Source of the DNA: Rhodospirillaceae bacterium
GTDB taxonomy: Bacteria; Pseudomonadota; Alphaproteobacteria; Azospirillales; Azospirillaceae
DNA length: 64,000 nucleotides
Assembly (NCBI GenBank): GCA_029267445.1
Contig: JAJUIU010000002.1
Span: 1 to 64,000, forward strand
Direction: 5' to 3'
Both the position numbers and the translations under genes were made by a program. A model generated the notes under the pieces. It was given only the letters and a program-made list of their open reading frames with translations. It did not search any database and was not told the DNA's origin. Below, one piece after another: positions 50,424 to 56,496 of the stretch (the first letter of the stretch is position 1; every line of letters starts with the position of its first letter).

Positions 50424-51532
50424 CCGCGCCGGACGACGACAACCCGTTCGCGCCGCGCCGGAATACGCACCTCGTCGGGCACGAGAAGGCGGAACGCCTG
50501 CTGTTGGACAGCTGGAACTCCGGCCGCATGCATCACGCCTGGCTGATCGCGGGGCCGCCCGGCATCGGGAAGGCCACGCTGGCCTACCGCATGGCGCGCT
50601 TCGTCCTGGCCAAGGGCGGGGAGGACCAGGGCGCCGGCCTGTTCGGCGCGCCGCCGCCGCCGGAAAGCCTGTCGGTCGATCCGGAGCATCCGGCCGCCCG
50701 CCGCATCGCCTCCTCCGGCCACGCCGATCTGCTGACGATCCAGCGGACCTGGGACGAGAAGCGCAAGCGCTTTAAACGGGACCTCCCGGTGGACGAGGTG
50801 CGCCGGATCGCGCCCTTCCTGCGGCTGACGGCGGCGGAGGGCGGCTGGCGCGTGGTGGTGGTCGACGGGGCCGACCAGATGAACCCCAGCGGCCAGAACG
50901 CCCTTCTGAAGATACTGGAGGAACCGCCGCCCAAGGCCCTGATCCTGATGGCGGTGGACAATGTCGGTGCCATCCTGCCGACGATCCGTTCACGGTCACG
51001 CAAGCTGCACCTGGAGCCCTTGTCTGAGGCGGCGGTGGTGAACCTGCTCGGCCGCTACGCCCCGGACTTGGACCGGGGGGACGCGGTGGCACTCGCCCGC
51101 CTGTCCGAGGGCAGCATCGGCCGCGCGCTGGAGCTGCATCAGGCGGGCGGCCTCGACCTCTACCGGGCCATGCTCGGGCTGCTGGAGGGCATGCCGCGGC
51201 TGGACATCCTGGCGGCCTACAAGTTCATCGACGATGTCCTGCGCGGCAATGACGAGGCGTCCTGGTCGGCGGTGACCGAACTGCTCGGCTGGTGGCTACA
51301 GCGCCTCGCCCGTGCTTCCGCGCGGCAGGAGCTTCCCCCCGAAGTGGTGGCCGGGGAGGGGCCTCTCCTCGCCCGTTTGGCGGGGCCGGATCGGCGGGAA
51401 CGCAGCCTTGATCGCTGGGTGGAGGTGTGGGAGAACACGACCCGCCTGTTCGCCCGGGCGGATTCCGCCAACCTCGATCGCCGGCAGGTCCTTCTCAACG
51501 CCCTGCTGTCCATCGAAGAGGCGGCCGCCTGA
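50420..51532 (+). CDS. holB: DNA polymerase III subunit delta prime
   Basis: A 370-residue clamp-loader subunit. Walker A AGPPGIGKAT is at residues 44-53, and QNALLKILEEPP with an IRSRSRKL arginine-rich segment follows; the zinc Cys cluster is absent, as usual for delta prime of this group. It loads the beta clamp with DnaX and HolA. It overlaps tmk by 4 bp and precedes metG by 55 bp. Confidence 0.94.
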   Translation: MTAPDDDNPFAPRRNTHLVGHEKAERLLLDSWNSGRMHHAWLIAGPPGIGKATLAYRMARFVLAKGGEDQGAGLFGAPPPPESLSVDPEHPAARRIASSGHADLLTIQRTWDEKRKRFKRDLPVDEVRRIAPFLRLTAAEGGWRVVVVDGADQMNPSGQNALLKILEEPPPKALILMAVDNVGAILPTIRSRSRKLHLEPLSEAAVVNLLGRYAPDLDRGDAVALARLSEGSIGRALELHQAGGLDLYRAMLGLLEGMPRLDILAAYKFIDDVLRGNDEASWSAVTELLGWWLQRLARASARQELPPEVVAGEGPLLARLAGPDRRERSLDRWVEVWENTTRLFARADSANLDRRQVLLNALLSIEEAAA

Positions 51533-51587
51533 GCGAGCCCCACGGGCCCGAGGCCCGGTGGGTACCGCCGCACCGGAGACGAGCACG

Positions 51588-53156
51588 ATGCCTGGGCGCA
51601 CGCCCTTCTACGTCACGACGCCGATCTACTACGTGAACGACAAGCCCCATATCGGGCATGCCTACACGACGATCGCCTGCGACGTGATGGCCCGGTTCAA
51701 GCGGCTGGACGGCTATGACGTCAAGTTCCTGACCGGCACCGACGAGCATGGTCAGAAGGTGCAGAAGTCGGCCGACGCCGCAGGCGTGAGCCCGCAGGAG
51801 CTCGCCGACCGGAACTCGCGCAACTTCAAGGACTTGGCGCAGCTTCTGAAGATCTCCAACGACGACTTCATCCGCACCACCGAGAAACGCCAGCACCGTG
51901 CGGTCCAGGCGTTGTGGGAGCGGATGCTGGCGGCGGGCGACATCTATCTCGGCAGCTACTCCGGCTGGTATTCGGTCCGGGACGAGGCCTATTACGGCGC
52001 CGACGAGTTGCGCGACGGGCCGAACGGGACGAAGCTGGCGCCCACCGGCGCGCCCGTGGAATGGGTGGAGGAGCCCAGCTACTTCTTCCGCCTGTCCGCC
52101 TTCCAGGACCGGCTGCTGAAGCTTTACGAGGAGCGGCCGGACTTCATCATGCCGTCCGGTAAGCGCAGCGAAGTGGTCAGCTTCGTGAAGGGCGGCCTGC
52201 GCGACCTGTCGATCAGCCGCACGACCTTCGACTGGGGCATCCGGGTCCCCGGCGACGAGAGCCACGTCATGTATGTCTGGCTCGACGCGCTGACCAACTA
52301 CATCACGGCGCTGGGCTACCCGGTGACCGAGGAGGGCAGCCCCTACGCCCGCTACTGGCCGCACGCCCTGCACATCGTCGGCAAGGACATCCTGCGCTTC
52401 CACACCGTCTACTGGCCGGCGTTCCTGCTGTCGGCGGGGCTGGAGCCGCCCCGCCGCGTGTTCGCCCATGGCTGGTGGACGGTCGAGGGCGAGAAGATGT
52501 CCAAGTCCCTGGGCAAAGTGGTGGCGCCGGAGGACCTTCTGGAGGCCTACGGTCTCGACCAGACCCGCTACTTCCTGATGCGGGAGATCCCGTTCGGGAA
52601 CGACGGAGATTTCTCACGCAAGGCCATGATCCAGCGGATCAACGGCGAGCTTGCGAACGATTACGGCAACCTCGTCCAGCGCGTCCTGTCGATGATCCAG
52701 AAGTACTGCGACGGCGCGCTGCCGAAGCCGGCCGAGTTCCTGGAGGCCGACCGCAAGCTTCTGGGGGCCGCGCAGAGCCTGCTGGCCACGGTGAGGGCGG
52801 AACTGGACGCGCAGGCCTTCCACAAGGCGCTGGACGCGATCTGGAGCGTGATCGGCGACGGCAACCGGTATGTCGACGAGCAGGCGCCCTGGTCGTTGCG
52901 CAAGACCGACACGGTGCGCCTCGGCACGGTGCTCCACACCCTGGCCGAGACGATCCGCCATGTCGCGATCCTGACCCAGCCCTTCATGCCCGACGCGTCC
53001 GCCCGCATCCTGGACCAGCTCGCGGTTTCGCCCTTCGCCCGTGATTTCAAGGCGTTGAGCGAGGCTCCTCTGTCGGCGGGCACGGCGCTGCCGCCGCCCG
53101 TTCCGGTCTTCCCCCGCCATGTCGAGGCGGAGAAGACGGAGGAGGGGGCCGCCTGA
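51588..53156 (+). CDS. metG: Methionyl-tRNA synthetase (short form)
   Basis: A 522-residue class I synthetase. HIGH is at residues 21-24 in DKPHIGHAY; KMSKS at 303-307. The knuckle region (about 115-150) has no CxxC zinc site, and there is no C-terminal tRNA-binding extension, so it is the short alphaproteobacterial form. It charges tRNA-Met. The ATG at 51588 gives the TPFYVTTPIYY family start. Its stop overlaps the tatD start by one base (TGATG). Confidence 0.96.
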   Translation: MPGRTPFYVTTPIYYVNDKPHIGHAYTTIACDVMARFKRLDGYDVKFLTGTDEHGQKVQKSADAAGVSPQELADRNSRNFKDLAQLLKISNDDFIRTTEKRQHRAVQALWERMLAAGDIYLGSYSGWYSVRDEAYYGADELRDGPNGTKLAPTGAPVEWVEEPSYFFRLSAFQDRLLKLYEERPDFIMPSGKRSEVVSFVKGGLRDLSISRTTFDWGIRVPGDESHVMYVWLDALTNYITALGYPVTEEGSPYARYWPHALHIVGKDILRFHTVYWPAFLLSAGLEPPRRVFAHGWWTVEGEKMSKSLGKVVAPEDLLEAYGLDQTRYFLMREIPFGNDGDFSRKAMIQRINGELANDYGNLVQRVLSMIQKYCDGALPKPAEFLEADRKLLGAAQSLLATVRAELDAQAFHKALDAIWSVIGDGNRYVDEQAPWSLRKTDTVRLGTVLHTLAETIRHVAILTQPFMPDASARILDQLAVSPFARDFKALSEAPLSAGTALPPPVPVFPRHVEAEKTEEGAA

Positions 53157-53953
53157 TGCTGGTCGACAGCCATTGCCATCTGGATTTCCCGGATTTCCAG
53201 GAGGAGCGGGACGCGGTCGTGCAGCGGGCGCGGGAGGCAGGGGTCGGCCTGATGCTGACGATTTGCACCCATGTCAGCCGCTTCGCCCAGGTCCGCGCCG
53301 TGGCGGCGGCCTATCCCGACGTGTTCTGCACGGTCGGCATCCACCCGCACCATGCGGCGGACGAGTTCGCCCACAGCGGTACCGACGGCCTCGTGGCGCT
53401 CACCCGCGACCCGAAGGTCGTCGGCATCGGCGAAAGCGGCCTCGACTATTTCTACGACAAGAGTCCGCGCGACCTGCAGCAGGAGAGCTTCCGGCGGCAC
53501 ATCCGCGCCTGCCTTGAGACGGACCTGCCGATCATCGTCCATACCCGCGACGCGGACGCGGACACGATCCGCATCTTGAGGGAGGAGGGGGCTGGAACCC
53601 GCCTCAAGGGCCTGCTGCATTGCTTCAGCTCTTCACGCCAACTGGCTGAGGAGGCGCTGGAATTCGGCTTCCACATCTCGTTCAGCGGGATCGTCACCTT
53701 CAAGAAGAGCGATGAGCTGCGCGACGTCGCCCGCATCGTGCCCATGGACCGGCTGCTGGTGGAGACCGACGCGCCGTACCTGGCACCGGTGCCGGTGCGC
53801 GGCAAGCGGAACGAGCCCGCCTTCGTCGCCCACACGGCGCGGCTTCTGGCCGAGGTAAAGGGGGTTGCGGAAGCCGAGATGGCCCGGGCGAGCACTGCCA
53901 ATTTCCTGCGCCTGTTCGACCGTGTTCCGGCCCCCGTCGACGCGACGGCCTGA
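53156..53953 (+). CDS. TatD-family metal-dependent deoxyribonuclease
   Basis: A 265-residue TIM-barrel hydrolase with SHCHLDF (metal His6 and His8 region), IGESGLDYFYDKSP, VHTRDAD, LLHCFS and LVETDAPYLAPVP. TatD proteins act as 3'-5' DNA exonucleases and D-tyrosyl-type hydrolases in quality control. It overlaps metG by one base and is followed after 3 bp by the metallo-beta-lactamase-fold gene, a well-known gene order. Confidence 0.95.
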   Translation: MLVDSHCHLDFPDFQEERDAVVQRAREAGVGLMLTICTHVSRFAQVRAVAAAYPDVFCTVGIHPHHAADEFAHSGTDGLVALTRDPKVVGIGESGLDYFYDKSPRDLQQESFRRHIRACLETDLPIIVHTRDADADTIRILREEGAGTRLKGLLHCFSSSRQLAEEALEFGFHISFSGIVTFKKSDELRDVARIVPMDRLLVETDAPYLAPVPVRGKRNEPAFVAHTARLLAEVKGVAEAEMARASTANFLRLFDRVPAPVDATA

Positions 53954-53956
53954 CGC

Positions 53957-54724
53957 ATGCGGGTGACGATCCTCGGCTGCGGCGGGTCCAGCGGCGTGCC
54001 GCTGATCGGCAATGTCTGGGGCGATTGCGACCCGGCGGAGCCCCGGAACCGCCGCACACGGCCCAGCATAATGGTCCAGCAGGGCGACACGACCATCCTG
54101 GTCGACACGTCGCCCGACTTGCGGCATCAGCTTCTGGCCGCCGACGCCAAGCGCATCGACGCCGTGCTCTACACCCATGCCCACGCCGACCATGCGCACG
54201 GGATCGATGATCTGCGGGCCATGAACTGGCTGATGCGCGCGCCGATCGACGTCCATGCCGACGCCGAAACGCTGGCGATCCTGCGGAACCGCTTCGCCTA
54301 TTGCTTCGAGCCGCAGAGCCACCGCGACGGCTTCGCCCGGCCGGTCCTGATCCCGCACACGATCGACGGGCCGTTCAAGGTTGGCCCGGTGGAAGCCATT
54401 CCCTTCGTCCAGGACCATGGCTTCTCGCACAGCCTGGGCTACCGCTTCGGCCCGCTCGCGTACTCCACGGACGTGGTCAAGCTGGACGAGGCGGCATTCT
54501 CGGCGCTGGAAGGCGTCGACACCTGGATCGTCGACTGCGTGCGTCTGGAGCCGCCGCATCTCGTCCATGCGCATTGGCCGATCACGCTGTCCTGGATCGA
54601 GCGCGTTCGTCCGCGCCGCGCCATCCTGACGCACATGAACCAGACGATGGATTACCGCACGCTGCTGGAGATCCTTCCGGCGGGGGTGGAGCCTGGATAT
54701 GACGGGATGGTGCTGGAGTTCTGA
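53957..54724 (+). CDS. Metallo-beta-lactamase-fold hydrolase (PhnP-like)
   Basis: A 255-residue MBL-fold protein. The zinc site THAHADHAHG has His74, His76, Asp78 and His79, followed by the DDLRAMNW segment typical of PhnP/RNase-Z-like phosphodiesterases. Its usual neighbours are metG and tatD, as here. It probably cleaves cyclic phosphates or small phosphodiesters; no phn genes are close. The ATG at 53957 lies 3 bp after the tatD stop. Confidence 0.93.
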   Translation: MRVTILGCGGSSGVPLIGNVWGDCDPAEPRNRRTRPSIMVQQGDTTILVDTSPDLRHQLLAADAKRIDAVLYTHAHADHAHGIDDLRAMNWLMRAPIDVHADAETLAILRNRFAYCFEPQSHRDGFARPVLIPHTIDGPFKVGPVEAIPFVQDHGFSHSLGYRFGPLAYSTDVVKLDEAAFSALEGVDTWIVDCVRLEPPHLVHAHWPITLSWIERVRPRRAILTHMNQTMDYRTLLEILPAGVEPGYDGMVLEF

Positions 54725-54753
54725 GGATCGCGGACCGTCCACTGCTCATGTCG

Positions 54754-54781
54754 GTTTTCCATAATATGTCTTATCGGACTT
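54754..54781 (+). other. dif-like XerC/XerD recombination site (candidate)
   Basis: A 28-bp AT-rich segment in a very GC-rich genome, built as 11+6+11: half-site GTTTTCCATAA, central TATGTC, half-site TTATCGGACTT. The E. coli dif site has the same plan with CATAA and TTAT flanking a 6-bp centre. It lies between two rightward genes, with predominantly leftward genes beginning a little further right. A -10-like CATAAT for mazG is an alternative reading. Confidence 0.45.
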
Positions 54782-54863
54782 CTTGATGCCAGCGTGGGTG
54801 GGTTCCCAGCGCCCCCACCCTGGGCTAGTTTCCCCCAAAATGACCTCCAGCCGGGGACGTCCC

Positions 54864-55685
54864 ATGTCGAGCAACATCCAGCGCCTCATCGACATCATGG
54901 CGCGATTGCGCGACCCCGCCGGCGGCTGTCCCTGGGATCTGGAACAGACCTTCCGCACCATCGCACCGCATACGATCGAGGAAGCCTACGAGGTCGCCGA
55001 CGCGATCGAGTCCGGCGACATGGCGGCGATCAAGGACGAGCTGGGCGACCTCCTGTTCCAGGTGGTGTTCTACGCCCAGATGGCCCGCGAGACCGGCGCC
55101 TGGGATTTCGACTCCGTCGCCGGCCACATCTCCGACAAGATGATCCGCAGGCACCCCCACGTGTTCGGCGATGCCGTTGTGGCCACGGCGGATGACCAGA
55201 CGGCCCGCTGGGAGGAGCACAAGGCCCGCGAACGGGCCGAGAAGGCCGCCGCCGAAGGCCGGGCGCCCTCGGCCCTGGACGGCATCACGCCCGGCCTTCC
55301 CGCCCTCACCCGCGCCCTCAAGCTGCAGAAGCGCGCGGCGCGCGTCGGCTTCGACTGGACCGAGGCCGACCAGATCCTGGACAAGATGGAAGAGGAGATC
55401 GCCGAACTGCGGGCCGAACTGCGCGCCGGGCGGCGCGACCCGGCCCGCGTCGAGGACGAGATGGGCGATCTGCTGTTCGTGCTGGTGAATCTGGCGCGGC
55501 GCCTCGAGGTGGAGCCGGAATCCGCGCTGCGCGGTGCCAACGCCAAGTTCGAGCGCCGCTTCCGGCAGGTGGAGGCCTTCCTCGCCGCCGAGGGCCGGAC
55601 ACCGACGGAAGCGACCCTGGACGAGATGGAAGCCCACTGGCAACGTGCCAAGCGCCTCGAACGCCAGAACGAGGCGGCGGAATAG
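54864..55685 (+). CDS. mazG: Nucleoside triphosphate pyrophosphohydrolase MazG
   Basis: A 273-residue protein with two MazG domains: the first with EEAYEVADAI and DELGDLLFQVVF (about residues 40-75), the second with EEEIAELRAELR and DEMGDLLFVLVNLARR (about residues 180-215). The acidic residues bind magnesium. It hydrolyses aberrant NTPs. The ATG at 54864 has GGGGA upstream; an ATG at 54840 is an in-frame alternative. Length is normal. Confidence 0.95.
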   Translation: MSSNIQRLIDIMARLRDPAGGCPWDLEQTFRTIAPHTIEEAYEVADAIESGDMAAIKDELGDLLFQVVFYAQMARETGAWDFDSVAGHISDKMIRRHPHVFGDAVVATADDQTARWEEHKARERAEKAAAEGRAPSALDGITPGLPALTRALKLQKRAARVGFDWTEADQILDKMEEEIAELRAELRAGRRDPARVEDEMGDLLFVLVNLARRLEVEPESALRGANAKFERRFRQVEAFLAAEGRTPTEATLDEMEAHWQRAKRLERQNEAAE

Positions 55686-55719
55686 CCCTGAAATCAAGAC
55701 CATGCATGGAGTCGCCGCG

Positions 55720-56496
55720 ATGACGCAGCCGGCCTACGTCCCGAAGATCGTCCTCATCACCGGTGCCACGGGGGGATTCGGCAACGCCTTCGCCCGGCGC
55801 TTCGCCGCGCTGGGCTCAAAGCTCATCCTGACCGGCCGGGACATGGGCAAACTCAAGGACTTGGCCGCGTCCCTGAACACGCCGTGCCATCTCCTCCAGT
55901 TCGATGTGCGGGACCGTCCGGCGGTTGAGGCGGCCCTCGCCTCCCTGCCCGCCGATTGGGCCGCCATCGACCTGCTGATCAACAACGCCGGCCTCGCCCT
56001 TGGCCAGGACCCGGCCCAGAAGTCGAACATCGACGACTGGGTCACGATGATCGATACCAACGACAAGGCGCTGGCGGTCATCACCGGCCTGATCCTGCCG
56101 GGCATGGTGGATCGGCGCCACGGCCATATCATCAACATCAGCTCCACGGCCGCCTCATACCCCTACCCCGGCGGCCACGTCTATTGCGCCTCAAAGGCTT
56201 TCGTGACGCAGTTCAGCCTGGCTCTCAGGGCCGACCTGATCGGCACCGGCGTGCGCGTCACTTCCGTCGAGCCGGGAATGGTGCAGACGGATTTCAGCCT
56301 CGTCCGCTTCAAGGGTGACGCCGAGCGCGCGGCGAAGGTCTATGCCGACACCGTGCCGCTGACGGCGGACGATGTGGCCGAATCCGTGGTCTGGGTGGCC
56401 ACCCTGTCGCCGCACTTCAACGTGAACCGGGTCGAGATCATGCCCACCACCCAGGGGCCGGGCGCGTTGGGCGTGCACCGGGCGCCTAAGGGCTGA
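55720..56496 (+). CDS. Short-chain dehydrogenase (YdfG-like)
   Basis: A 258-residue SDR. The NAD(P) site is GATGGFG (residues 15-21), NNAG near 88-91, and the catalytic triad Ser141/142, Tyr155 and Lys159 in YCASK. The pattern resembles YdfG/NADP-dependent serine or 3-hydroxy acid dehydrogenases. The ATG at 55720 has GGAG 7 bases upstream; an ATG at 55702 would add six residues. It lies 34 bp after mazG and faces the phosphatase gene. Confidence 0.93.
   Translation: MTQPAYVPKIVLITGATGGFGNAFARRFAALGSKLILTGRDMGKLKDLAASLNTPCHLLQFDVRDRPAVEAALASLPADWAAIDLLINNAGLALGQDPAQKSNIDDWVTMIDTNDKALAVITGLILPGMVDRRHGHIINISSTAASYPYPGGHVYCASKAFVTQFSLALRADLIGTGVRVTSVEPGMVQTDFSLVRFKGDAERAAKVYADTVPLTADDVAESVVWVATLSPHFNVNRVEIMPTTQGPGALGVHRAPKG

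Follow-up and report, generated by a model that had tools for sequence, protein, structure and literature searches.

The chromosomal dif site of a Rhodospirillaceae bacterium and its counterparts in related genomes

A 28-bp site between an MBL-fold gene and mazG

The window, the 64,000-nucleotide stretch of DNA analysed here, comprises bases 1-64000 of the 137,260-bp contig G000:C51, part of a 4.23-Mb genome in 174 contigs. A gene for a metallo-beta-lactamase-fold protein (MBL) and mazG lie next to each other on the plus strand, and the 139-bp gap between them is occupied by a 28-bp inverted repeat. The start of mazG is assumed to be the ATG at 54864; the longest open frame begins at the TTG at 54783. 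Direct inspection of the plus strand finds GTTTTCCATAA TATGTC TTATCGGACTT at 54754-54781, with an 11-bp arm on each side of a 6-bp centre and the two arms inversely oriented. The G/C content of the 28-mer is 9/28 (32%) versus 69% for the contig. The initial annotation, which had described an AT-rich 28-bp dif-like site of 11-6-11 layout in a GC-rich genome, is therefore correct on these points. The features of the locus are as follows.

51353-55943, no strand: interval within which the polarity of GGGNAGGG changes (KOPS-like convergence zone; forward/reverse counts 22/0 versus 3/22)
53957-54724, plus strand: MBL gene (Pfam PF12706), syntenic with the region left of dif on G012:C1
54754-54781, minus strand: dif site, 28 bp, 11-6-11, AAGTCCGATAA-GACATA-TTATGGAAAAC in XerC-to-XerD order, assigned from the sequence, pattern counts, the KOPS-like switch and published alphaproteobacterial dif sites
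54754-54764, minus strand: predicted XerD-binding arm TTATGGAAAAC, the conserved arm in 43 aligned sites
54765-54770, minus strand: central hexamer GACATA between the arms, where strand exchange is expected
54771-54781, minus strand: predicted XerC-binding arm AAGTCCGATAA, the more variable arm in 43 aligned sites
54864-55685, plus strand: mazG (Pfam PF03819), syntenic with the region right of dif on G012:C1

Published alphaproteobacterial dif sites share a length of 28 bp, the 11-6-11 layout, an XerD arm beginning with TTATG, low GC content and an intergenic position, and in most of them the XerC arm ends with ATAA (PMC2731167). The window site, with the centre GACATA, differs from them in exact letters only. 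The published XerD arms include TTATGGAACTT and, from Rickettsia, TTATGGAAAAT, and the XerC arms include AAGTCGCATAA from M. loti (PMC2731167). Because the arms of the window site match these XerD and XerC arms, the site reads C-to-D on the minus strand. The layout given earlier thus stands with one correction: the conserved arm is the XerD arm. Assignment of the left arm, TTTCCATAA, to XerC was reversed on the basis of the comparison with published sites and the position of IS elements.

The alignment comprises 43 sites drawn from at least 97, namely the two sites of the window genome and the rest from relatives. Its conserved arm is the TTATGGAA arm, and the XerD arm reads TTATGGAAA(A/T)(T/A) across the 43 sites, partly fixed by the search pattern. 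The arms resemble published dif arms, with the XerD arm being the more conserved one; since the patterns used to pick the 43 sites prescribe some positions in each arm, the comparison is informative only at the positions left free.

With up to three mismatches allowed, a 24-base piece of the site matches the window once (shuffle mean, 0.00). In the 4.23-Mb genome, the pattern TTNCATAAN6TTATNNG has two matches at up to one mismatch, on C51 and C49, and its reversed control has none; base composition predicts ~0.007 matches in this genome, a figure that refers to exact rather than one-mismatch matches. The looser pattern TTNCATAAN6TTAT, for which 0.02 exact matches are expected in this genome, finds one extra palindromic place on C78 at up to one mismatch, and its reversed control equals one. 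The contig of the window carries one exact dif-like site only. A count of identical sites had been proposed as a check, with evenly spread copies speaking against a terminus mark. The window holds no other copy at up to three mismatches, and the one other site of the genome has a different centre.

Motif polarity and Xer homologues

The octamer GGGNAGGG, the KOPS of E. coli and Vibrio, changes polarity around the site. On the whole 137,260-bp contig, 22 copies are in forward and 0 in reverse orientation to the left of the site, and 3 are in forward and 22 in reverse orientation to the right (Fisher p 1.9e-10). The best change point falls within the 4.6-kb interval 51,353-55,943, which includes the site. 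The site is thus located where the KOPS-like motifs converge, the motif itself being borrowed from other bacteria. As a control, 35 letter permutations with at least 20 copies on the contig were compared. In the order of polarity, GGGNAGGG comes second (94% of 47 copies), AGG.GGGG is as strong by ratio (94% of 34 copies), and the remaining permutations reach at most 88%. Since other G-rich octamers are polarised too, the switch is a property of G-rich motifs at the replichore junction. It marks that junction and does not prove that FtsK reads GGGNAGGG here.

The orientation of the predicted genes follows the same division of the 137-kb contig, with 33 genes on the plus and 19 on the minus strand left of the site and 23 and 45, respectively, right of it. 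The earlier remark that genes mostly point toward the site holds as a tendency. GC skew had also been suggested as a test, with a switch expected at the site. A step is present on the contig and is weak, from -0.005 on the left to -0.031 on the right. Skew is noisy at this GC content, and it was dropped as the main test. Given the weakness of the step, skew alone could not have decided whether the site is dif.

The window genome encodes one best homologue each of XerC and XerD, both scoring under the equivalog cut-offs. The XerD-like protein on C150 scores 321 bits to TIGR02225 (cut-off 329.6) and passes the broader model NF001399 (343.9 versus a cut-off of 279). The XerC-like protein on C126 scores 303.8 bits to TIGR02224 (cut-off 335.15).

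Terminus synteny and alternative readings

The regions on either side of the window site are syntenic with those around the dif site on G012:C1. This 3.44-Mb contig carries dnaA, and its dif lies at 49.9% of the circle (0.499) from parB. MBL and mazG are found within 7 kb of each other on one contig in 12 genomes of the same family, and the order MBL-dif-mazG is found in ten genomes (G000, G004, G007, G009, G012, G016, G022, G027, G034, and G032). G032, which has no exact match even with the looser pattern, is counted with one mismatch. The stricter pattern misses the sites of G007, G016, and G034; for G025 and G030, the MBL-mazG gap was covered in part at most. The arrangement MBL-dif-mazG is a handy terminus landmark in the family of the host. 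In six genomes of group g2, MBL and mazG are on separate contigs; a site is present on the mazG contig 44-54 kb from mazG in five of the six, and the mazG contig of the sixth has no site.

The palindrome could instead be a regulator-binding site in the mazG promoter, being located 82 bp upstream of the assumed start. Its position directly upstream of mazG, which recurs in similar form in several relatives, would agree with such a role. We nevertheless consider it very improbable. The g2 genomes separate the site from mazG by tens of kilobases or have no site on the mazG contig, further sites occur in relatives on mazG-free contigs, nearly always one per contig, and polarity switches at the window site.

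Mobile elements often exploit Xer sites. The 28-mer could accordingly be an attachment site of Xer type belonging to a mobile element, or what is left of such an element (an integrative element, a pdif module, or a plasmid cointegrate), and not a resident dif, and IS elements are found at many of the related sites. A slightly smaller chance still is given to this reading. Neither a recombinase nor a transposase is present among the nine neighbouring genes scanned, both flanks are shared with the chromosome of G012, and the contig has a single exact site. A chance AT-rich inverted repeat, although imperfect short palindromes are commonplace, is refuted by the polarity switch and by the conservation of arms and place across genera, in line with the small expected number of exact matches and the empty reversed control.

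We therefore assign the 28-mer as the dif site of the main chromosome, with a probability of about 96%. The polarity switch, the single copy, the Xer homologues and the synteny with G012 bear out the original suggestion of a dif site marking the replication terminus. The site pins down the chromosome terminus and orients the replichores in a draft assembly. By analogy with E. coli and Vibrio, from which binding, FtsK control and recombination are inferred, crossing-over between sister chromosomes would produce a dimer, and FtsK at the closing septum would pump DNA along KOPS motifs toward the site from both flanks. XerC and XerD would then bind the two arms, and strand exchange at the borders of the 6-bp centre would restore two monomers.

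The IS elements at the related sites have a preferred position. A TGTAGGC-like IS end lies past the XerC arm at 16 of the 43 sites, at a distance of 5 bp (11 sites) or 6 bp (5 sites). One further site has an IS end 15 bp past the XerC arm, and 26 of the 43 have none within 30 bp of it. The pattern for the IS tip was written after the sites had been viewed, and sites from the same genome do not count as independent. In the window genome, such an IS end is next to neither of the two sites. Beyond the IS end, a related transposase gene is present on C1, C3, and C4 of G023 (C2 has a remnant) and on C1-C3 of G012. The G023 transposase is 459 aa long, and Pfam gives only helix-turn-helix families; we infer that it belongs to the IS1202 family. 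IS1202-like elements or ends also occur by the XerC arm on G011 C1-C3, on G010 C2, and elsewhere, and the same IS can be present on several replicons of one cell. For ISAjo2-type elements of the IS1202 family, the published distance to the XerC site of dif is 5 bp (Harmer et al. 2023, PMC10132070), similar to the 5 or 6 bp in the relatives, and published transposases of 441-457 aa compare with the 459 aa in G023. The dif-adjacent cases in that paper are from Acinetobacter, and the words "Azospirillum" and "Alphaproteobacteria" do not occur in its main text.

Further dif-like sites in the window genome and its relatives

The dif site of the window is ordinary in kind; it is established that each replicon has one dif and that the centres differ. 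In multi-chromosome species, every chromosome has a dif of its own, and it is chiefly the centre that varies (Carnoy and Roten 2009, PMC2731167). In Vibrio cholerae, the centres of dif1 and dif2 differ between the replicons, and each site is at a GGGNAGGG switch (Val et al. 2008, PMC2533119), as is also the case here. In contrast to V. cholerae, the few-contig relatives have three to seven site-bearing contigs among the matches listed. Large secondary replicons with dif at a KOPS switch have been published (PMC13342612, PMC11724359); the main text of PMC13342612 names Azospirillum twice, both times with respect to replicon content.

The stricter pattern has matches in 39 of 59 genomes and none in the other 20. 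The looser pattern was run on 17 genomes; G002, G007, G030, G034, G043, G046, and G048 are outside the matches listed. Among these matches, six few-contig relatives have 27 exact TTNCATAAN6TTAT sites on 26 of their 35 contigs (G010, 4; G011, 5; G012, 3; G019, 4; G023, 4; G031, 7), and G019:C1 is the sole contig of the six genomes with two sites, one of which begins with TTG. One site per replicon is thus the rule, with G019:C1 and G002 (two sites on one contig) as exceptions.

G011, G012, and G023 together have 12 site-bearing contigs, 11 of which have a ParB match over the cut-off; G011:C5 has none. In 9 of the 11 replicons, site and parB are nearly opposite each other, at a distance greater than 0.44 of the circle (binomial 2e-7; KS 4e-6), the threshold of 0.44 having been chosen after the values were seen. 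The lowest distances are those of G011:C4 (0.324) and G012:C3 (0.357). KOPS-like counts in 20-kb flanks mostly switch at the 16 sites of relatives compared. They do not switch at G011:C4 and are equivocal at G012:C3, the same two sites that are least opposite parB.

Identical central hexamers occur in the dif-like sites of three pairs of contigs, each pair within one genome (G023 C1/C4, G021 C4/C35, and G008 C73/C204). These pairs run against the published rule of divergent centres, and G023 C1 and C4 in particular are an exception to the rule of PMC2533119.

The second dif-like site of the window genome is G000:C49:30251. Read C-to-D, its centre is GAAGGA as compared with GACATA on C51, and the KOPS-like counts are 10/0 on the left and 0/2 on the right. 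The site adjoins a gene with RTX calcium-binding repeats. The DNA to its left matches G012:C2 mainly at 652-663 kb, left of the G012:C2 dif (720 kb), with smaller ones at 52 kb and 838 kb; all matches together cover 26% of C49. G012:C2, a secondary replicon of 1.18 Mb, carries a parAB of its own at about 95 kb and has a point of polarity divergence at about 100 kb. On the basis of this partial synteny and of the parAB and polarity of G012:C2, the site on C49 is most likely a secondary-replicon dif. A ParB search of the window genome finds one ParB only, and a separate second replicon is not proven.

Beside parAB on G012:C2, at 96273-97406 on the minus strand, is a gene for a 377-aa protein without a Pfam match, possibly an unrecognised replication initiator. 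Homologues are found beside parB on G023:C2 and on G000:C36 (34%), and none is found in G002 or G011. A fusion had been considered for the window chromosome in view of the second site and the single ParB; it was dropped, because the homologue on G000:C36 makes a separate replicon as likely.

G002 is evidently Rhodospirillum centenum. Its one contig measures 4,355,543 bp, and the DnaA match begins at 3,127,726; the published R. centenum genome has 4,355,548 bp and dnaA at 3,127,698 (PMC2890560). Two dif sites, at 130,301 (minus) and 1,219,104 (plus), have opposite orientations and different centres. In 44 stretches covering about one-fifth of the chromosome, KOPS-like polarity forms four main segments that converge at each dif and diverge at about 508-519 kb and about 2.95 Mb; the pattern is locally irregular at 2.853-2.885 Mb. 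There is no ParB match near the second divergence point. MBL is 3.4 kb from the second site, mazG is 0.1 kb from the first, and both genes are on the side expected for them. With MBL and mazG at different dif sites, the MBL-dif-mazG terminus known from the other genomes is split at dif in G002.

DNA resembling the secondary replicon of G012 is concentrated in G002 between dif1 and roughly 0.6 Mb. It is present at 130-150 kb (15%), 217-237 kb (22%), 475-495 kb (16%), and 575-595 kb (7%), and is scarce at 435-475 kb (0-1%). It is also present in two distant stretches, at 2.179 Mb (28%) and 3.923 Mb (29%). The stretches at 871-891 kb and 1.307-1.327 Mb map mainly to the chromosome of G012, and the stretch just beyond dif2, at 1.219-1.239 Mb, is 1% covered by G012:C2. 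The G012:C2 values refer to 840 of the 1,184 kb of that replicon. Absorption of a second replicon into the G002 chromosome fits these data. A clean reciprocal dif x dif exchange is disfavoured, the two stretches compared beyond dif2 being mainly chromosomal in their match or 1% covered by G012:C2.

It is doubtful that the secondary replicon was joined to the G002 chromosome by Xer recombination at dif, leaving a chromosome that remains functional while having two dif sites and two termini. Because the sites are in inverted orientation, fusion at dif would require a further inversion. The near absence of secondary-replicon-like DNA just beyond dif2 and its presence in distant stretches also argue against such a fusion. 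In fused dicentric Agrobacterium chromosomes, two replicons are united in one molecule and KOPS converge on dif (PMC12153318); that fusion has one dif between two active origins, whereas G002 has two dif sites. The two-dif chromosome may explain the lack of a strong inflection in the GC skew of R. centenum (PMC2890560), and G002 is a natural case for asking how cells cope with two termini in a single circular chromosome.

A wider scan of contigs with the arms returned 20 stretches. Several are from GC-poor or distant organisms and are probably chance matches. In the Siccirubricoccus stretch, the KOPS-like counts are in the wrong sense (0/0 left, 4/1 right). In a Marivibrio halodurans contig (L223, 4092-4115), a site with identical arms coincides with a local switch in the KOPS-like counts (3/0 left, 1/4 right); it is probably the dif of M. 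halodurans. In one Myxococcales MAG, five contigs (L208, L210, L212, L224, and L226) share a repeat with a dif-like core, in each case near a contig end.
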